Shown: piece by piece, positions 6,795-43,808 of the stretch
How positions within the stretch are numbered: position 1 is the first letter of the stretch
Layout: every line of letters starts with the position of its first letter
IMG/VR virus record: IMGVR_UViG_3300020152_000006
Location: 1 to 46,182 of that record
Strand: one strand, 5' to 3'
Source of the DNA: a virus
DNA: 46,182 bases
Program-made: the position numbers and the translations under genes
The notes under the pieces: generated by a model
What the model saw: only the letters and a program-made list of their open reading frames with translations
Told to the model about the DNA's origin: nothing
The model's database searches: none

Positions 6795-6861
6795 GCCAGC
6801 CTATGCGCCTGCCATATGCGGGCGCATACACGGGCGCTTAGTCCGAACAAGGGAGACCACC
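6795..6861 (+). promoter_or_regulatory. structured leader of gene 6862
   Basis: First hairpin TATGCGCC (6802-6809)/GGCGCATA (6821-6828); second short stem CGGG (6831-6834)/TCCG (6842-6845); then AACAAGGGAGACCACC and ATG. Same layout as the other early leaders but with different stem sequences. Confidence 0.6.
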
Positions 6862-12886: not shown

Positions 12887-14017
12887 ATGAAGCTAGTGAA
12901 GCGCGGAGGGACGTGGCAAGTCCACTTCGAGGATATGCACGGCCAACGCCAGCGTATCTCGACCGGCATCCGAGTTAATCCGGCTCTGCCGGACGAAGGC
13001 AAGGCGTCGGCAAACCTCGCGGGCATCGAGAAGATGCGGGCCGCGCTGATGGGCAACGTGCCTGCGGAGGTACGCCGCGCAGCGGGCAAGTACCGCACGC
13101 TCGCCCAGGCGCTCCACTACACGCTCGACCACCACTGGGAGAAGAAGAAGGCCAACCGATCCTTCCGCTACCGCGTTGACCTGATCTCCAAGGACATCGG
13201 CTACTGGCGCCTGGACGAGATCACCTATTCGATGCTGGAGGACTACGGGAACGAGCTGGAGAAGCGCGGCAACTCGGAGGCCACCCGCAACCGCAAAATG
13301 TCGGCCATCCACTTCGCGATGAAGCAGGCGCAGCGGCGCGGCGAGATCGAGAAGATCCCGGACATCCCGCGCTGGGCCGAGAACAACGTGAAGGAACGCT
13401 ACCTCACGCTCGAAGAGGAACGCACGCTGCTCGATTCCATCGCGAAGAACGCCGCGGCCGCCGACCTCCAAGGGCAGTACCTCCTTGCCCTGGTCCCGTT
13501 CCTGCTGGACACCGGCCTGCGCGCCAGCGAGGCGCTGCTCCAGCGTGAGCAGGACTTGGGCGATCGCATCTGGCTCAAGCACGGCTCGACCAAGTCGGGC
13601 AAGGGCCGCGTCGTGCCGCTGACCGAGCGGGCGAGGGCGTCGCTGAACACCCTCTTCGATTCCCCGTTCCACTGGGAACTGGTGGGCGCCTACGCACGCG
13701 ACCGGAGTCTCCCCACGCAACGCCTCGGGGGCATCTTCAAGCGCGCGGTGAAGCGCGCGGGGATCAAGGGGATCACCCTCCACACCCTGCGGCATACCTG
13801 CGCGTCCCGCCTGGTGCAAGCCGGGATGGACCTGTATCGGGTGAAGGAGTGGCTCGGCCATTCCTCGATCGTCGTCACCGAGCGCTACGCCCACCTCGCG
13901 CCGAAGAGCCTGGACGCCGGCGTTGCCGCGCTCGAGTCCTTCCAGCGGCCCGCCGCGGAAGGTGTCCCGCTGGCAACCACTGGCACGCCGAGTGTCCGCG
14001 GCGACATGGTTCACTAA
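12887..14017 (+). CDS. int: tyrosine site-specific recombinase (phage integrase)
   Basis: A 376-residue tyrosine recombinase with a complete active site: R212 (TGLRASEA), K236 (STKSGKGRVVPL), H299 and R302 (LHTLRHTCASR), H325 (WLGHSS) and nucleophile Y334 (TERYAHLAP). An N-terminal arm-binding-like region (KRGGTWQVHFEDMHGQRQRI) and a SAM-like core-binding domain (about 65-165) precede it. ATG 12887 follows the early-type leader ACACAAGGGAGACCAGCAC. It would insert the phage genome into a host tRNA gene; an attP candidate lies 103 bases downstream. Integrases just before the RNA polymerase gene are known in T7-like cyanophages and pelagiphages, so the arrangement has precedent. Confidence 0.93.
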   Translation: MKLVKRGGTWQVHFEDMHGQRQRISTGIRVNPALPDEGKASANLAGIEKMRAALMGNVPAEVRRAAGKYRTLAQALHYTLDHHWEKKKANRSFRYRVDLISKDIGYWRLDEITYSMLEDYGNELEKRGNSEATRNRKMSAIHFAMKQAQRRGEIEKIPDIPRWAENNVKERYLTLEEERTLLDSIAKNAAAADLQGQYLLALVPFLLDTGLRASEALLQREQDLGDRIWLKHGSTKSGKGRVVPLTERARASLNTLFDSPFHWELVGAYARDRSLPTQRLGGIFKRAVKRAGIKGITLHTLRHTCASRLVQAGMDLYRVKEWLGHSSIVVTERYAHLAPKSLDAGVAALESFQRPAAEGVPLATTGTPSVRGDMVH

Positions 14018-19817: not shown

Positions 19818-20270
19818 CTGACTACCATCCAGTACCGCGCGCTCGATCCGGCGCGCGTCGGCTTCATTGTGGTCCACTGTGCCGCGACCCGGCCCAGCCA
19901 AGACCTCGACGTCAACGACATCCGCCGGATGCACCTCCAGCGCGGCTTCATCGACGTCGGCTACCACTTCGTCATCAAGCGCGACGGCACGGTCCAAGAT
20001 GGCCGCCCGCTCGATCGCCAGGGCGCGCACGTCAGCGGCTACAACCACCTGAGCGTGGGCGTATGCCTGATCGGCGGCGTCTCCGAAGACGACGTCAACG
20101 TGCCCGAAAACAACTTCACGTCGGCGCAGTTCGCATCCCTGCGAACGCTGCTCGCCGACCTGAAGACCAACCACTTCCCGCACGCCGAGATCCTCGGCCA
20201 CCGGGACATCCCCCGCGTCCGTAAGGCGTGCCCGTCGTTCGACGTGCGCGAGTGGTGGGACAACGCCTGA
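19818..20270 (+). CDS. T7-lysozyme-like N-acetylmuramoyl-L-alanine amidase (endolysin)
   Basis: A zinc amidase of the T7 gp3.5 type. With M1 at CTG 19818 it has 150 residues (T7: 151). Zinc ligands are H20 (IVVHCAATRPSQ), H128 (LGHRDIPR) and C138 (KACPSFD), with Y49 (VGYHFVIKRDG) and K136 near the site. The only ATG/GTG-type start is GTG 19869, which would remove the first strand and two residues before the zinc histidine. CTG 19818 lies six bases after AGGAG and restores the full fold, so a CTG start is likely. It cuts the cell wall at lysis. In T7 the same protein also binds and inhibits RNA polymerase, which may apply here. Confidence 0.88.
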   Translation: MTTIQYRALDPARVGFIVVHCAATRPSQDLDVNDIRRMHLQRGFIDVGYHFVIKRDGTVQDGRPLDRQGAHVSGYNHLSVGVCLIGGVSEDDVNVPENNFTSAQFASLRTLLADLKTNHFPHAEILGHRDIPRVRKACPSFDVREWWDNA

Positions 20271-22596: not shown

Positions 22597-22741
22597 ACCC
22601 ACGCTGCTGAACCTGGAGTGCCGCCTCGCGGCACTTCACCAGGACCGCAAGTTCCGCCCCGGGGATCCGTGGCACGTCCTATTCACTCCCGAGGAGATCG
22701 CCATGATGTTCAACAAGGAGCCGGCCGATGGCGGTCGGTGA
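22574..22741 (+). CDS. small protein overlapping the primase-helicase end (55 aa)
   Basis: A 55-residue frame from GTG 22574, overlapping the primase-helicase by 23 bases and the next gene by 14. The sequence looks protein-like (LLNLECRLAALHQDRKFRPG DPWHVLFTPEEIAMMFNKEP) with a helix and an amphipathic FTPEEIAMMF block. It fills the only gap between two firm genes in the same direction. Function unknown. Confidence 0.5.
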   Translation: MTNPLASEPTLLNLECRLAALHQDRKFRPGDPWHVLFTPEEIAMMFNKEPADGGR

Positions 22742-23366
22742 CGTCAACTCCAGCGCCCGCGGCTCGGGCGCGCGCTACAACGACGGCAAGCCGGACCTCT
22801 CGCTGATCCCGCTGACGATCGTGGCCGCGAGCTTCCCCGCCGCCGGCACGGTCGGCGCCTCGCTGAACCTCCTGGGCCTGTTCCAGGCGTCCGGCAACGG
22901 CGACCGCCTCCAGGAAGCGCTGTGGGAAGTCAACGGCCACTGGCGCGACGCTGCCCGCGTGTTCGAGTACGGCAAGAAGAAGTACGCCGCTTGGAACTGG
23001 GCGAAGGGCATGGCCTGGTCCATTCCGCTCGCCTGCGCCGCGCGCCATGCACTCGCCATCCTCGAAGGCGAGGAGACCGACCCCGAGTCGGGCCTCCCGC
23101 ACATCGGGCACTACATGGCGAACCTCGTGATGCTCGCGCACTTCGTCCGGTGGTTCCCGGAGGGCAACGACCTCCCGCCTCCGGAGCTGTTCCGCGAGGC
23201 GGGGCCGGTGTTCTCTCGCCACTCGCCCGAGGGCTTCGAGGAAGTTCTCAACCCGGCCCTTGTCCAAGAGAGAGCCCGAGACTTCGTCAACGGCGTCCTG
23301 GGCAAGCCGTCGGCACCCTGGCCGGCGTCGGCCTACTTCCCCCCGTACACCAACCCCGAGTCCTGA
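22728..23366 (+). CDS. dATP/dGTP diphosphohydrolase-like protein (MazG-like helical, DUF5664 type)
   Basis: A 212-residue protein with AAGGAG seven bases before ATG 22728. The blocks ARYNDGKPDLSLIPL, VFEYGKKKYAAWNWAKGM, ARHALAILEGEETDPESGLP and HIGHYMANLVMLAHF match the phage family named dATP/dGTP diphosphohydrolase N-terminal (DUF5664). The Glu/Asp/His residues in the last two blocks resemble the metal site of MazG-type all-alpha NTP hydrolases. It would hydrolyse dNTPs and adjust pools for replication. In some phages with 2-aminoadenine DNA related enzymes remove dATP, but no purZ-like gene is present here. The C-terminal third is not recognised. Confidence 0.65.
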   Translation: MAVGDVNSSARGSGARYNDGKPDLSLIPLTIVAASFPAAGTVGASLNLLGLFQASGNGDRLQEALWEVNGHWRDAARVFEYGKKKYAAWNWAKGMAWSIPLACAARHALAILEGEETDPESGLPHIGHYMANLVMLAHFVRWFPEGNDLPPPELFREAGPVFSRHSPEGFEEVLNPALVQERARDFVNGVLGKPSAPWPASAYFPPYTNPES

Positions 23367-23837: not shown

Positions 23838-25720
23838 TGGCCTTCAAGCGCATGGTCTTCGACGAGGAGACCGACGGCTTCCTCGAAGAAGTCACCAAGA
23901 TCCACGTTATCCGCATGATCGACCGGGACACCGGCCGGCGCCTGCGATTCACCAACTACGACACCTACCATGACGGCTCACTGGTCCGCGCCGACGGCGA
24001 CATCGAAAAAGCCAGGGACATCCTGGCGAACGCCGACGTCGTCTACTCCGCGAACGGCATCAAGTACGACGAGCCCGTCCTCGACAAGCTCTACGGCTTC
24101 CGCTCGAAGTACCACTTCGACGCCCGCGTCGCCGCCGCGCTGATCTGGACCAACCTCAAGGACGTCGACTTCGGTCTGCTCCGAAGCGGCAAGCTGCCCG
24201 AGGAGTTCCAGAAGAAGGGCCTGATCGGCCGCAACTCCGTGGAAGCCTGGGGCTACCGCCTCGGCGAACACAAGGGCGACTTCGATCCCAAGGACTTCGG
24301 CTACACCTGGGCCACCGTGCCATTCCTTCGGGAGATGGACGACTACTGCGCGCAGGACTGCGAGACGCTCCTGAAGTGGCTCGAGAAGATCGAGTCCAAG
24401 AACTACTCGCCGGAAGCCCTGGACCTGGAGATGCGCGTCGCGCGCATCATCGCCCAGCAGGAACGCAACGGCTTCGCGCTGGACGTGGCGGCCGCCGAGA
24501 AGCTCCTGGCCGAGCACCAGAAGAAGCTCAACGAGCTTTCGGTCTCCCTCCAGGACACCTTCCCGCCGTGGGAGGTCATCACCAAGCGCGCCGTCTCGAA
24601 GGTCAACAACAAGAAGCTCGGCCGCGTCAAGGGTGAGGAGTACGTCGTCAAGAAGACGATGCTCTTCAACCCAGGCTCGCGAGACCACATCGCCGATCGG
24701 CTACAGAAGCTCCGCGGTTGGGAGCCCTCGGAGTTCACCCCCGGCGGCAAGCCGAAGGTGGACGACGAGATCCTGTCCGCGCTGCCGTTCCCCGAGGCGA
24801 AGAAGCTCTCCGAATACTTCGCCGTCGAGAAGCGCATGGGCCAGCTCGAAGCTTGGCTTAAAGCCGTGGGTCCCGATGGTCGCGTGCATGGCACCGTCAA
24901 CTCGAATGGCGCCGTCACCGGCCGCATGACGCACGCCTCGCCAAACGTGGCGCAGGCAGACAAGAGCGAGTTCATGCGTGCGTGCTGGATCGCGCCGCCC
25001 CCGAAGGTACTAGTCGGCTGCGACGCCGAGGGCATCGAACTCCGGATGCTCGGTCACTACATGGCGCCCTACGACGGGGGCAAGTATGCCGACGCCGTGG
25101 TCAACGGGAAGAAGGAAGAAGGCACCGACGTCCATACGCTCAACCAGAAGGCCATTGGCCTGAACGAGCGCGACGGGGCCAAGACCTTCATCTACGCGCT
25201 GATCTACGGGGCAGGGGACTTCAAGCTCGGCACGATCGTCTACGACGACATGACCGACGACCAGAAGGCGAAGTTCAACGCCTCCCAGGGTCAGCGCGAC
25301 CGGAACCTCGCCAAGCTCGGCAAGGCACGCCGCGACCGCCTGATGAAGAACCTGCCGGCGCTCGCCAAGCTGACTGACGCGGTGAAGTCCGCCGCCAAGA
25401 AGCGCGGCTGGCTCCGCGGCCTCGACGGCCGCCTGCTGCACGTCCGCGGACAGCACTCCGCACTCAACACCCTGCTCCAGTCGGCCGGTGCCGTGGCGAT
25501 GAAGCAGGCCCTCGTCATCCTCGACGACCAGATCGCCGACAAGGCCCTCTTCGTGGCGAATGTCCACGACGAGTGGCAGATGGAGACCACCCCTGACCAA
25601 GCAGACTTCGTCGGCCGAACAGCAGCCGACGCCATCCGACTCGCCGGTGAGCACTTCCAACTCAAGTGCCCCCTCGCCGGAAGTTTCGATGTTGGACCGA
25701 ACTGGGCTCACACGCACTGA
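23837..25720 (+). CDS. family A DNA polymerase with 3'-5' exonuclease (T7 gp5-like)
   Basis: A 627-residue replicative polymerase. The exonuclease domain has D9 and E11 (FDEETDGFLEEVTK), D95 (HFDARV) and D174 (CAQDCE). The polymerase domain has motif A GCDAEGIELRMLGHYMA (D396), motif B RDGAKTFIYALIYGAG (R445, K449, Y453) and motif C NVHDEWQ (H577, D578). It ends GPNWAHTH, as T7 ends GPNWAICH. The GTG start 23837 overlaps the preceding stop. The thioredoxin-binding loop of T7 gp5 is not clearly present, since the protein is shorter (T7: 704), so processivity may rest on another factor. The last 32 bases overlap a homing-endonuclease gene. Confidence 0.95.
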   Translation: MAFKRMVFDEETDGFLEEVTKIHVIRMIDRDTGRRLRFTNYDTYHDGSLVRADGDIEKARDILANADVVYSANGIKYDEPVLDKLYGFRSKYHFDARVAAALIWTNLKDVDFGLLRSGKLPEEFQKKGLIGRNSVEAWGYRLGEHKGDFDPKDFGYTWATVPFLREMDDYCAQDCETLLKWLEKIESKNYSPEALDLEMRVARIIAQQERNGFALDVAAAEKLLAEHQKKLNELSVSLQDTFPPWEVITKRAVSKVNNKKLGRVKGEEYVVKKTMLFNPGSRDHIADRLQKLRGWEPSEFTPGGKPKVDDEILSALPFPEAKKLSEYFAVEKRMGQLEAWLKAVGPDGRVHGTVNSNGAVTGRMTHASPNVAQADKSEFMRACWIAPPPKVLVGCDAEGIELRMLGHYMAPYDGGKYADAVVNGKKEEGTDVHTLNQKAIGLNERDGAKTFIYALIYGAGDFKLGTIVYDDMTDDQKAKFNASQGQRDRNLAKLGKARRDRLMKNLPALAKLTDAVKSAAKKRGWLRGLDGRLLHVRGQHSALNTLLQSAGAVAMKQALVILDDQIADKALFVANVHDEWQMETTPDQADFVGRTAADAIRLAGEHFQLKCPLAGSFDVGPNWAHTH

Positions 25721-26078
25721 CCTCTACTACCTCGCCGGTTTCTTCGACGGCGAGGGCTCCATCGGCGTCGCCGGCGCATCCCTGAGCGTCCGCGTCGTGA
25801 ACACCTACAAGCCGATCCTCGAGCGCTTCCAGAAGGCTTGGGGCGGGAGCGTCGACACCCACCGCAAAGGCGACGACAAGTCGCGGCTGTGCTGGGTGTG
25901 GCGCCTCTACGGCGACAACGCCGAGCAGTTCCTCAACGACGTCGTGCCCATCCTCCGGGAGAAGGCGCCCCAGGCATACCTCGGGCTCCACTTCCGCACC
26001 CTCCGCCCGAGCGACCCGGCCCGCGAATACACCCGCCGCGCCCTGAGCCTGCTCAAGAAGACGACCCACTTCACATGA
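25689..26078 (+). CDS. single-motif LAGLIDADG homing endonuclease
   Basis: A 129-residue protein from ATG 25689, overlapping the DNA polymerase end by 32 bases. The motif LAGFFDGEGSIG (residues 15-26, catalytic D20/E22) is a clear LAGLIDADG helix. RVVNTYKPILERFQKAWGGS followed later by CWVWRLYGDNAEQFLNDVVP is the usual beta-alpha body. One motif means it would act as a homodimer on a near-palindromic site. There is no sign of an intron or intein, so it is free-standing. Such genes spread by cutting phages that lack them, often at conserved genes such as the polymerase next door. The start of its frame is fused into the conserved polymerase end, which is unusual. Confidence 0.85.
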   Translation: MLDRTGLTRTDLYYLAGFFDGEGSIGVAGASLSVRVVNTYKPILERFQKAWGGSVDTHRKGDDKSRLCWVWRLYGDNAEQFLNDVVPILREKAPQAYLGLHFRTLRPSDPAREYTRRALSLLKKTTHFT

Positions 26079-26948: not shown

Positions 26949-27144
26949 CCCGTTCCTCCAACCCACCGTCATCGAGTACGCGCCGTCGCAGGACTGCCCG
27001 AACGGCCCCTACGCCACGATGCAAGCGCTGATGGACGACCCGACGTCGACCACGCGCTGCATCCTGGATTTCGCAGGGGGCGCGGAGGATGCGGTCAAGC
27101 GAGCGAACGACGACAAGAAGAGTGCCAAGGAGGTGCTGAAGTGA
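26848..27144 (+). CDS. outer-membrane lipoprotein spanin (Rz1-like)
   Basis: A 98-residue reading from GTG 26848, starting inside the Rz-like gene in the +1 frame and overlapping it by 101 bases. The signal peptide VKIRVLLATSASLFLSAC has a lipobox ending at C18, followed by the Pro-rich TPCPEPPPTPNADP typical of Rz1 proteins. The frame is open further upstream, but that part is a shadow of the i-spanin. The C-terminal half (CPNGPYATMQALMDDPTSTT) is longer than in most Rz1 proteins. It would pair with the i-spanin across the periplasm. Confidence 0.75.
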   Translation: MKIRVLLATSASLFLSACGTLTPCPEPPPTPNADPFLQPTVIEYAPSQDCPNGPYATMQALMDDPTSTTRCILDFAGGAEDAVKRANDDKKSAKEVLK

Positions 27145-39357: not shown

Positions 39358-39786
39358 ATGACCAACAGCAGCTTCGGCATCGCCGAGACGGACAAGTACG
39401 TCCGCAACATCCTGAGCCGGGCCGGCAAGCCGCCGGCGGGCGCAGACGCGGACGGCATGGTCGACTGGCTGCTGCCGCATGTGATCCACCAGGAGTCGGG
39501 TGGCGATCCCACCGCGGTCTCCCCGAAGGGCGCCCTCGGTCGCCTTCAGGTCATGCCCGCCACCGCGGCCAACCCCGGGTTCGGCATCGAGCCCGCCAAG
39601 GACCACTCCCCCGAGGAGCTGGAGCGCGTCGGCAAGGCGTACCTGAAGGCGATGATCGCCCGCTACCCCGGCCGTCCTGACCTTGCCTTGGCCGCGTACA
39701 ACGCGGGGCCGGGCAGGGCGGACAAGTGGGCCGGCGTGGACGTGATGGCCGCCAAGGAGGGCGGTCGCCCCGACCCTTTCGCGTAA
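39358..39786 (+). CDS. lytic transglycosylase module, N-terminal part of gp16
   Basis: A 142-residue SLT-type transglycosylase with catalytic E46 in HVIHQESGGDPTAVSPKGAL GRLQVMP and the later LALAAYNAGPGR. In T7 this domain is the N-terminus of gp16, which opens the cell wall during DNA entry. Here it stands in its own frame, ending at TAA 39784-39786 inside the beginning of the main gp16 frame. A slippery CCCTTTC just before the stop could join both by a -1 shift. If the frame change is real and unprogrammed, the phage would carry a separate small transglycosylase. Confidence 0.85.
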   Translation: MTNSSFGIAETDKYVRNILSRAGKPPAGADADGMVDWLLPHVIHQESGGDPTAVSPKGALGRLQVMPATAANPGFGIEPAKDHSPEELERVGKAYLKAMIARYPGRPDLALAAYNAGPGRADKWAGVDVMAAKEGGRPDPFA

Positions 39787-42700
39787 GCGCGGGTGTCGAA
39801 GGACTGGTCTCCGTTGCTCCCGACCTGGGAGAGCTGGAGACCGTCGATCGCACCCGCCCTGGCCCGACGTGGCGAGACTACTTCACCGACATCGTCGGGA
39901 ACGACTCGTCCATCGCGGCCTTCCACAACATCGTCGAGGACGCCGGCTACCACGTCGACCCGTCCTTCGACATCGGGCAGATCCCGGAACAGGAGTGGGC
40001 GCAGCTCACCGCCGGGATCCCCGAAGAGCTACAGCCGCGGCTTGGCGCCGCGGTCTCCCGAGAGCACCTGAACGTGCTCGCGGCGCGCGCTCGCGCAGAG
40101 CTGAACGCCGAGGAGGAGATCGCGCAGTTCGGCGGGTGGGGCGTGGCGGGGCGGTTCGCCCTGAACATGCTCGACCCCCTGAGCCTGGCCGTCGGCGCCG
40201 CCACGGGCGGCATCGGCGCTTCCACCAAGGCCGCGCGCCTGGCCCAAGCGGCGAAGTCCGCAACGGCCGCCGGTAAGTTCAAGGACGCCGCGGCCGCCGT
40301 CGAGGCCCTCGGTACGATCGCCCGCGGCAGCAAGTGGGCCGGCGCTGGCCGGGCCGCCACCGCGGCGGGCCTGGAGAACGCGGCCCTCGAGGCCGTGCTC
40401 AACCAGGGCAACATCACCCGCGACGGCTGGGACATCGCTACGGCCGGCCTCGCCGGCGGGCTGCTGGGCGCGGGCTTCTCCCGCGTGTTCCGTGGCCGAG
40501 AGATGGACGGCATCCGCACCGCATACGCAAGGGCGCGGGAGGAGCTGAACCTGGCCGAGCTGTCGCACACGATCGCGACCAAGCGCCAAGAGATCGAGAC
40601 CCGCCTGAAGTGGCTCCACGCCGACGGCGACGTCGCGCAGGCGCGCGCCGAGCTGAAGCAGCTCGAGACCCGCCTTGCCACCGAGCGCACCGCGCGCGAG
40701 GAGCGACTCGCCGCCGAGCAGGAGGTCCGCAAGGGCTTCCAGGACTCTCTCGCGGCCGCGCGCCGTAAGGAACTCGAGCCGATCTTGGCGCGCGCCGAGA
40801 ACGCCGAGAACATGCGCGTCCAGCTCGAGAACCGCGTCGGCAAGCACCGACAGGCGGTCGAGGAGCTTCAGGAACGCATCGAGCGTGGTGACACCTCGAA
40901 GGCGACCCTGGCGAACATGGTCAAGGCGTCGAAGCAGCTCCAGGAATCCGAGCGGCTCTACAACAACCACGTCGCCCGCACCTCGGGGCAGATGAAGGCC
41001 GCCGAGGCCGCGCGCGCAGAGATGCAGCAGGCCGCCTCGGTTCCGCCCGACGAGGCCGCCGCCTTCGCCGAGCGGATGTTCCAGCAGCGCCAAGCCGCCG
41101 AACGCGGCCGCGCCCAGGAGCGCGTGACCGCAGCCGAAAAGGCCGTGGAAGCGCGCCGTGCGTCCCTCCAGGGCGAACTCGACAACCTCGAGTCGCTCCG
41201 GCAGGCCGGCGTGCAGGCATCCGATCGCCAGGTGGCCGAGATCTTCGGCGCGGACTCCGCCTCCGCGGCCCGCTTCATGGGCTTCTACGAAGGCGTGCAT
41301 CCACACCTGGATGAAGACTCCGGTCTCCCCTCGGCGAACCCGGTGGCGCAGCTCGGCGCTAAGGGCGCACGCGGGAAGGTCGTAGACCTCCTGACGTTCC
41401 GCAAGGGTCCCTTCGCGACGTTCTCGATGATCCTTCGGGGCTCCCCGAACGAGACCGTCCGGAACGAGCTGGGCCGCATCGTCGGCAACAGCATCGGCAC
41501 CAAGGACGGCTCGGCCAACATGGTCGGCGCGTCCGAGATCGCCCACATCCTGCGACAGCGCTACGAGGCGAAGTTCCACCAGCTCGCCACGCCGGCCTAC
41601 AAGGATTGGGCAGAGCGCAACGGCATCGGCATCATGCAGCGACAGACGCGCCTGGCCCGCGAGGACTTCATGTCCGACGTCGGCCGCGCCATCCGCGGTG
41701 ACGTCTCGAAGACGGATCCGGCTGTCCTGAAGATGGCCGCGGGTGTCCGGAAGATCTTTGCGGAGTACCTGGCCGAGGCCAAGAACGCCGGCGTCAAGGG
41801 CTTCGAGAACGTGGAGCCGCGAGATGCGTACCTGCCCCGCGTGTTCGACTTCCACTCGATCCACGACGTCGAGACCCGCATCGGCTCCGACAGCCTGCGC
41901 CTCCTGGTGCAGAAGTCGATCCAGTCTGCGAACGAGGACATGGGCGACGCGCTGGCCGCGAAGATCGCCAAGGCATACGTCAAGCGGATGAAGGAACTCC
42001 GCGTCGGCGCCGACATCGGCCTGATGCAGGGCATGAAGTGGGACGACGTCGGCTTCCTGCGGCAGTTCCTTAACGACGCCGGGCTCGCCCCGCGCGAAGT
42101 GGAGGACGTCGTCACGGAGATGGCCGCGCTCAACGCCCGCCGCGAGCGGCAGACGGAGGGCTCGTTCCGCAACGCGAAGCATCGTGTCTCGCTGGACGAG
42201 AACTTCAGCATGTCCTTCCGCGACCAGCGTGCGCAGCAGGAAGGCCGCCTCGAGGACATCGAGGTCCGCGTGGCCGACCTGTTCGAGAACAACGTCGAGG
42301 CCCTGTTCGGCCGCTACAACCGAACGGTCGCCGGCCACGTCGGCCTGGCGAAGGTGGGCATCAAGACGAAGGCCGACTTCGAGGAGTCGATCGCCAAGGT
42401 GGAACGAGAACTCGAGGGAGACCTCGAGGAGCTGGAGCGCGTCCGCGACACCGCGGAGGCGGCCTATGCTCTCGTCACCGGCACGCCGATCGAGAAGGCC
42501 ACGACGCTCACGCGCCTGGGCCGAGCCGCGCGCGACTGGAACTTCACGACCACGATGGGTCAGTCCGGTTGGGCGCAGTTCCCCGACCTCGCCGGCCTGC
42601 TCCAGAAGGGCTACCTCGGTCACACCCTCAAGCACTTCCCGGAGGTCTTTCGGACCATCCGGCGTGTCGACGGGAAGATCGACGAGGCGTTCTACCGCGA

Positions 42701-43808
42701 GCAGGAAGCGTGGGTCGGCCTCGGCACGGACCTGTTCAACAACCGCACCTTCTCCTCCTTCGACTGGGGGCATGAAGGCGAGGGCCTGAATGGCGCGCTC
42801 GGCAAGTTCGAGCACGGCATCCGTGTCGCCGGCCGCGGCGTGCAGCGTGCATCCGGTCTGTCGTTCATGACCGAAATGTCGCAGCGCCTCACCGGTCGCG
42901 TCATCGTCCAGCGCCTCGTCAAGGATGTCCTGGAGGGCGGCGCCATCTCCGAAGACCGGGCTCTCCAGCTCGGCTTGACGGATGGCCTGAAGAAGCGCAT
43001 CGCCAAGCAGATCAAGGACCACACGGTCTGGGCGGACGGCGACTTCGGCGGCAAGGTCCAGATCGTGAACTACTCGGCCTGGACGGACACCGAAGCCCGC
43101 GACGCCATGCTCTACGCCGTGAGCCGAGAGGCCCGCCGCATGGTGCAGGAAGAGGACCTCGGGGACACCGCGCTCTGGATGCACAAGAACTGGGGCAAGA
43201 TCCTCGCCCAGTTCCGACGCTTCGCGCTCGTCAGCTACTCCCGTCAGCTCCTCCACGGCATCGCACACGCGGACGCCGAAGAGGCGACGCGAGTGATGAT
43301 CTCGATGGCGCTTGCGGCGATGGCCTACAACGCCCGCCACCACACCGCGATGGCGCTCAAGGAAGCCGGAGGTGCCACTCCGGAGGAGCTTGAGGAGTAC
43401 CGCGAGAAGTACCTGGGCATGGACCGCCTGGCGGCCGCTGCTCTGGCGAACTCGAGCTACTCGTCGATCCTCCCAGGCCTCTGGGATACCGGCCAGTATT
43501 ACTCGACCGGAACGCGCTTCTTCGACACGCGAACGAGCGGTCTCGGCTCGGACATCATCACCGGCAATCCCACCTATGGTCTCTTCCGCAACGCGGGGCG
43601 GGCCGTCGGCGGCGCCGCGCAGTCCGCACTCCGAGGCGACCGTCAGTTCGACGAGACGGACGCCGCGGCGATTCGCCGGCTACTCCCGTTCCAGAACGTC
43701 CTCGGCATGGACCTCCCGTTCGCCGCGCTCGCCTCGGGCCTTCCCGAGCGAGACGACGACGCGGATCCAGAGCACCTCGACTGGCTCACCAACGACAACC
43801 CGCAATAA
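39726..43808 (+). CDS. internal virion protein D / ejection protein (T7 gp16-like main part)
   Basis: The frame has 1360 codons from GTG 39726. Its first 20 residues (GRRGRDGRQGGRSPRPFR) are an Arg-rich shadow of the transglycosylase frame, so protein-like sequence starts near 39783. No ATG, GTG or TTG start is available there, and the first Met is about 145 residues in. This favours production as a -1 frameshift fusion of about 1,483 residues (T7 gp16: 1318). A long coiled coil (about residues 255-480) and the C-terminal helices fit the gp16 body. The protein is ejected into the cell and helps pull in the genome. Confidence 0.85.
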   Translation: MGRRGRDGRQGGRSPRPFRVSAGVEGLVSVAPDLGELETVDRTRPGPTWRDYFTDIVGNDSSIAAFHNIVEDAGYHVDPSFDIGQIPEQEWAQLTAGIPEELQPRLGAAVSREHLNVLAARARAELNAEEEIAQFGGWGVAGRFALNMLDPLSLAVGAATGGIGASTKAARLAQAAKSATAAGKFKDAAAAVEALGTIARGSKWAGAGRAATAAGLENAALEAVLNQGNITRDGWDIATAGLAGGLLGAGFSRVFRGREMDGIRTAYARAREELNLAELSHTIATKRQEIETRLKWLHADGDVAQARAELKQLETRLATERTAREERLAAEQEVRKGFQDSLAAARRKELEPILARAENAENMRVQLENRVGKHRQAVEELQERIERGDTSKATLANMVKASKQLQESERLYNNHVARTSGQMKAAEAARAEMQQAASVPPDEAAAFAERMFQQRQAAERGRAQERVTAAEKAVEARRASLQGELDNLESLRQAGVQASDRQVAEIFGADSASAARFMGFYEGVHPHLDEDSGLPSANPVAQLGAKGARGKVVDLLTFRKGPFATFSMILRGSPNETVRNELGRIVGNSIGTKDGSANMVGASEIAHILRQRYEAKFHQLATPAYKDWAERNGIGIMQRQTRLAREDFMSDVGRAIRGDVSKTDPAVLKMAAGVRKIFAEYLAEAKNAGVKGFENVEPRDAYLPRVFDFHSIHDVETRIGSDSLRLLVQKSIQSANEDMGDALAAKIAKAYVKRMKELRVGADIGLMQGMKWDDVGFLRQFLNDAGLAPREVEDVVTEMAALNARRERQTEGSFRNAKHRVSLDENFSMSFRDQRAQQEGRLEDIEVRVADLFENNVEALFGRYNRTVAGHVGLAKVGIKTKADFEESIAKVERELEGDLEELERVRDTAEAAYALVTGTPIEKATTLTRLGRAARDWNFTTTMGQSGWAQFPDLAGLLQKGYLGHTLKHFPEVFRTIRRVDGKIDEAFYREQEAWVGLGTDLFNNRTFSSFDWGHEGEGLNGALGKFEHGIRVAGRGVQRASGLSFMTEMSQRLTGRVIVQRLVKDVLEGGAISEDRALQLGLTDGLKKRIAKQIKDHTVWADGDFGGKVQIVNYSAWTDTEARDAMLYAVSREARRMVQEEDLGDTALWMHKNWGKILAQFRRFALVSYSRQLLHGIAHADAEEATRVMISMALAAMAYNARHHTAMALKEAGGATPEELEEYREKYLGMDRLAAAALANSSYSSILPGLWDTGQYYSTGTRFFDTRTSGLGSDIITGNPTYGLFRNAGRAVGGAAQSALRGDRQFDETDAAAIRRLLPFQNVLGMDLPFAALASGLPERDDDADPEHLDWLTNDNPQ
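39774..39842 (+). promoter_or_regulatory. candidate -1 programmed frameshift site in gp16
   Basis: C-CCT-TTC (39774-39780) fits the X-XXY-YYZ slippery rule in the transglycosylase frame, one codon before its TAA. Downstream, GGTCTCC (39806-39812) and GCTCCC (39816-39821) pair with GGGAG-A-GC and GGAGACC (39827-39842), a long stable stem. The 25-base spacer is longer than the usual 5-9, which is the main weakness. Confidence 0.5.

Follow-up and report, generated by a model that had tools for sequence, protein, structure and literature searches.

Gene 16 of an uncultured T7-like phage is probably expressed by programmed −1 ribosomal frameshifting

We analyzed a virus record of 46,182 bases (hereafter, the window), which represents an uncultured T7-like (autographivirid) phage with a GC-content of 66%. 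Its genes include those of a single-subunit RNA polymerase, a primase-helicase, a DNA polymerase, a terminase, a head-tail adaptor, a major head protein, a tail fibre and an integrase. The place of T7 gene 16, located 3′ of a 716-aa ORF in the gp15 position and 5′ of the tail fibre gene, is occupied by a split gene. This locus presents several properties of T7 gp16: an N-terminal SLT domain with a catalytic Glu, a homologous body and the gene order gp15-gp16-tail fibre. The SLT domain and the body are not, however, encoded in one open frame, and a −1 shift is needed to obtain continuity.

The first of the two frames, both on the + strand, is an ORF of 142 codons (39358-39786) that matches the Pfam SLT family (65.9 bits) and is predicted to encode a free SLT transglycosylase. 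Its end reads GAC CCT TTC GCG TAA, which yields the C-terminus DPFA and a stop codon at 39784-39786. The main frame, −1 relative to the SLT ORF, stays open over 39681-43808 and matches PHROG 342 (internal virion protein with endolysin domain; 435 bits). The two frames overlap, and the SLT ORF stops inside the gp16 frame, as stated in a preliminary description of this DNA. Homology of the main frame to three relatives (G001, G003 and G004) begins precisely where the heptamer C_CCT_TTC does, at base 39774. The SLT part of the relatives aligns to frame +1 of the window up to about 39738 and the remainder to frame +3 from 39774, where PFRVSAGVEG in the window faces PFRASAGVEE and PFRASSGIEG in the relatives. 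A slip at 39774 would join 141 residues to a gp16 body of 1,342 codons (39774-43808), and the sum of 1,483 residues agrees with the fusion of about this length proposed in the preliminary description (relatives: 1,473 residues in L003, 1,478 in L006 and 1,442 in L004). The claim that the main frame has no usable start needs a qualification: a nominal GTG does exist at 39726, the only start near the joint, but the 16 codons between this GTG and 39774 have no homology in relatives and the next ATG, GTG or TTG is found at 40074 (none in 39729-40073).

According to the predicted structure, the SLT domain is complete in the 0-frame product. Between residues 10 and 120, pLDDT mostly exceeds 90, and the tail is disordered from residue 129, so that the shift would fall in a linker. 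The ES, LQVMP and AYNAGP motifs are all contained in the SLT ORF, whose sequence also matches T7 gp16. When the model was searched with Foldseek, only lytic transglycosylases with the SLT fold were recovered, with marginal E-values, and the T7 core protein gp16 was among them. The phage also encodes a T7-lysozyme-like amidase endolysin (19869-20270), so that the phage does not depend on the free SLT protein as its sole lysin, a role that we discarded for this reason.

The heptamer C_CCT_TTC (39774-39780) lies one codon 5′ of the SLT stop and in the correct 0-frame phase, as previously noted. It is the sole X_XXY_YYZ heptamer in this phase within the overlap, where the other in-phase candidates are only tetramers, and the second frame is the −1 frame. 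Heptamers of the type H_HH.U_UU.Y rank among the best shifters in E. coli, and C_CC.U_UU.C drives high-level −1 shifting in this species (PMC4066793). We surveyed 476 heptamers on both strands of the window and of four related contigs (359 kb of strands). The heptamer at 39774 ranked first for downstream structure and was one of four with AGGAGG located 6-17 nt upstream, the range in which SDs were sought in PMC4066793.

The known stimulators of −1 shifting in bacteria are a Shine-Dalgarno (SD) sequence and a hairpin (PMC4066793, PMC5009743), and the SD stimulator is used by dnaX and about half of IS elements (PMC5009743). An AAGGAGG sequence at 39754-39760, absent from the preliminary description, ends 13 nt before the heptamer and has no start codon to serve; it thereby presents the features of an internal SD-like stimulator, within the range of 6-17 nt. 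AAGGAGG is found only twice on the + strand of the window, and the second, at 27127, has the position of a ribosome-binding site for the GTG at 27141. When a longer stretch was folded, a small hairpin upstream (GGCCGCC-AAGGAG-GGCGGUC, 39747-39768) displayed the SD in its loop, a conformation expected when the mRNA is free.

Downstream of the heptamer, a hairpin of 28 bp is predicted at 39789-39857, with its base 8 nt past the heptamer and an energy of −47.5 kcal/mol (70-nt fold). The preliminary description had placed a strong stem-loop at 39806-39842. A strong structure is indeed present, but our folding indicates that these positions are only the inner part, or tip, of the longer hairpin, whose base is 8 nt rather than 25 nt from the heptamer; alone, the shorter stem would be too far away for a classical signal. 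We folded 70-nt stretches from every start on the + strand of the 46-kb window and only the one starting at 39789 reached −47.5 kcal/mol or lower. The 100-nt stretch holding the hairpin presents a z-score of −5.1. We also recoded the region with the encoded residues fixed and the codons redrawn from the phage's own usage, and none of the 20,000 synonymous recodings folded as well as the hairpin. No other stretch of equal length in the main ORF has a mean codon frequency as low as that of the 24 hairpin codons. For comparison, hairpins of the IS3 family average 0.45 kcal/mol/nt and exceed their local mean by at least 0.09 (PMC4066793); the hairpin in the window reaches 0.68 kcal/mol/nt, a value raised by the 66% GC of the genome, with a local excess of 0.35 kcal/mol/nt. 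This structure is thus more stable than its surroundings and is located a few nucleotides past the heptamer. No family was matched when the whole window was scanned against Rfam. We discarded an intrinsic terminator, as the hairpin has no T-run (0 hits), and a pseudoknot through the loop GACCT, which has no complement within about 100 nt downstream.

We compared the locus to three distinct relatives with 52-61% identity: L003 (L008 is an identical gene from a second assembly), L004 and L006. In all of them, SLT and gp16 are encoded in one continuous frame. At the joint of L003, L004 and L006, we found neither such a heptamer nor AGGAGG, and the folds are ordinary (z = −0.29 for L003, z = −0.36 for L004 and −31.9 kcal/mol per 70 nt for L006). 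The frameshift site is therefore not conserved in these homologues; conservation supports, but does not define, a programmed site. The preliminary description had named continuous relatives without the heptamer as a refutation of frameshifting. L003/L008, L004 and L006 are relatives of this kind, and none of them keeps the heptamer and the split, but they also lack the SD and the hairpin. Across the window and the three relatives, the heptamer, SD and strong hairpin are present only where the frame is split, which suggests that a lineage-specific programmed shift fits better than a random loss of one base. L010 contains a similar SLT domain, but within another protein. Among sampled autographivirid records, gp16 is annotated as a single CDS in all six. 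The multi-frame flags of other entries in the comparison of relatives correspond to alternative-frame ORFs and not to genes.

These results make programmed −1 frameshifting the best-supported reading of the sequence: the gene is split, the phase is correct, and the joint carries three cis elements that are rare in the genome and missing from unsplit relatives. Gene 16 is thus very probably expressed by a dnaX-like programmed −1 frameshift that gives a free transglycosylase and a gp16 of 1,483 aa. Ribosomes would translate the SLT domain and arrive at C_CCU_UUC, where the AAGGAGG 13 nt upstream would pair with the anti-SD of the ribosome and the 28-bp hairpin 8 nt downstream would block the entry side of the ribosome. 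Under the strain exerted by both elements, the Pro and Phe tRNAs would re-pair from CCU UUC to CCC UUU. Non-slipping ribosomes would read GCG UAA and release the free 142-aa transglycosylase, and slipping ribosomes would continue through ...RPDPF-RVSAGVE... to produce a 1,483-aa fusion similar to the gp16 of relatives. We infer the slippage itself and its rate, as well as the usefulness of a free SLT domain and of a limited dose of fused gp16.

Several observations weigh against a programmed shift: the split was seen in a single metagenome-derived record, all the relatives are continuous and hairpins are common at 66% GC, although none equals the one at 39789-39857. Our searches for a second copy of the split or for a closer relative (viral contigs by protein, by alignment and by the DNA pattern of the joint; genome contigs; phage records by DNA) returned none. 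Frame breaks in single genomes are more often errors or mutations (PMC3711429). The main rival explanation is therefore the loss of one base from a short homopolymer (CCC, TTT or CC) during sequencing or assembly, the gene being in reality continuous as in the relatives. The joint of L003 reads CCCCTTCCGC, and if one base were lost from such a run, the split would arise and CCCTTTC could be created by this loss alone; likewise, a single base lost from its CCCCTTCC run would lead to a similar split. Such an artefact does not account, however, for a perfect SD that lies 13 nt from the heptamer and serves no start codon, nor for the hairpin 8 nt away, the strongest of the genome; the relatives have neither. 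Moreover, the other genes that could be compared with the relatives are frame-intact (terminase, integrase, RNA polymerase, primase-helicase, DNA polymerase, adaptor, head protein, tail tube and gp15-like genes). Given that all three elements are missing from the continuous relatives and that these other genes are intact, we consider a stray base loss improbable.

Alternatively, the locus could encode two separate proteins in a translationally coupled arrangement, with a gp16 body that has its own start, either at GTG 39726 or through re-initiation close to the SLT stop. This GTG is in frame and preceded by a weak AGGGCGG, and a strong SD lies 5′ of the SLT stop. However, the codons that follow the GTG are those without homology in relatives, no other ATG, GTG or TTG follows before 40074, no start codon is suitably spaced from AAGGAGG, the hairpin would hinder re-initiation and the relatives encode a fusion, all of which makes separate proteins very improbable. 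Finally, gene 16 could recently have been inactivated by a true loss of a base, in the phage or in a decaying prophage. The latter is conceivable because the window encodes an integrase (12887-14017), but this scenario seems extremely unlikely: the genes for replication, transcription, packaging and the head are intact, and the coincidence of SD and hairpin would again be unexplained.

The proposed −1 frameshift at this locus finds its closest counterpart in the dnaX cassette of E. coli, in which SD, slippery heptamer and stem-loop follow one another in the identical order. The spacings observed here, 13 nt from the SD to the heptamer and 8 nt from the heptamer to the stem, fall within the range described for dnaX-type signals (PMC4066793, PMC5009743). 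In contrast, the heptamer of dnaX is A_AAA_AAG instead of C_CCU_UUC, and the present cassette has a much longer hairpin and is found in a phage structural gene. In some dnaX genes, the 0-frame stop directly follows the shift site (PMC5009743); as in this reversed arrangement, the shift would here give the longer product. Gene 10A/10B of T7 offers another precedent: there, too, the programmed −1 shift occurs in a T7-like phage and in a gene for a virion component, the capsid (PMC4283147). The shift in 10A/10B adds a short capsid extension, whereas here it concerns another gene and would join an enzyme domain of 142 aa to a body of 1,342 residues. The frameshift of the lambda-type tail assembly chaperone gpG/gpGT reportedly gives a short and a long product. 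It resembles the present case in that a phage morphogenesis gene yields both products from one start, but its proteins are unrelated to gp16 and contain no enzyme domain. Relative to T7 gp16 itself, the peptidoglycan transglycosylase of the ejectosome (PDB 6yt5, 7eyb, 7k5c), the architecture is alike: the SLT domain comes first and a large ejection protein follows, whose body matches PHROG 342 in both. In relatives, a single frame encodes the SLT domain and the body of gp16; here, a change of frame occurs in the linker past the SLT domain.

In the literature, of which our coverage is incomplete, we found no report of frameshifting in gp16 or another ejection protein. The mechanism is known, and its use in gene 16 appears to be new. 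If confirmed, a DNA-ejection protein of T7-like phages would join the genes controlled by frameshifting, by means of a compact and strong SD-heptamer-hairpin cassette, and a continuous gene would apparently have been replaced by a recoded one inside a small group of phages. Ordinary gene calling at this locus would give two unrelated ORFs. The shift would likely serve to set the dose of full-length gp16 and to supply extra free transglycosylase. That recoding purposely makes both a functional free transglycosylase and a functional fused gp16 in limited amount, and thereby separates functions joined in T7, is a more tentative proposal, to which we give slightly less than even chances. It is possible that the free enzyme is packaged, or that it contributes to opening the cell wall; if it is made, wall-cutting would not be delivered solely within the ejection complex in this lineage.

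We made several additional observations in the window. The integrase gene (PHROG 1; 12887-14017) is located directly 5′ of the T7-like RNA polymerase gene, which suggests a temperate autographivirid. Just 3′ of the DNA polymerase gene, the ORF 25560-26078 presents a LAGLIDADG-like domain (Pfam PF14528, E = 4e-5) and is kept in G001 and G003; it possibly encodes a homing endonuclease or a protein derived from one. The ORF 22728-23366 carries labels of weak length for dATP/dGTP pyrophosphohydrolase (MazG-like) and for a T7-lysozyme-type PHROG, over residues 73-152. Finally, the early region contains a repeated element, CGAACAAGGGAGACCACC-(ATG), immediately ahead of start codons (6838-6864, 7420-7446, 8793-8819 and 10975-11001, with related copies at 8367-8405 and 10066-10092), and strong hairpins are often found 5′ of these repeats. 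They contain GGGAGACC, which we take to resemble the transcript start of T7 promoters, and for this reason they may represent promoters of the phage polymerase; they may otherwise be conserved units of leader and ribosome-binding site.
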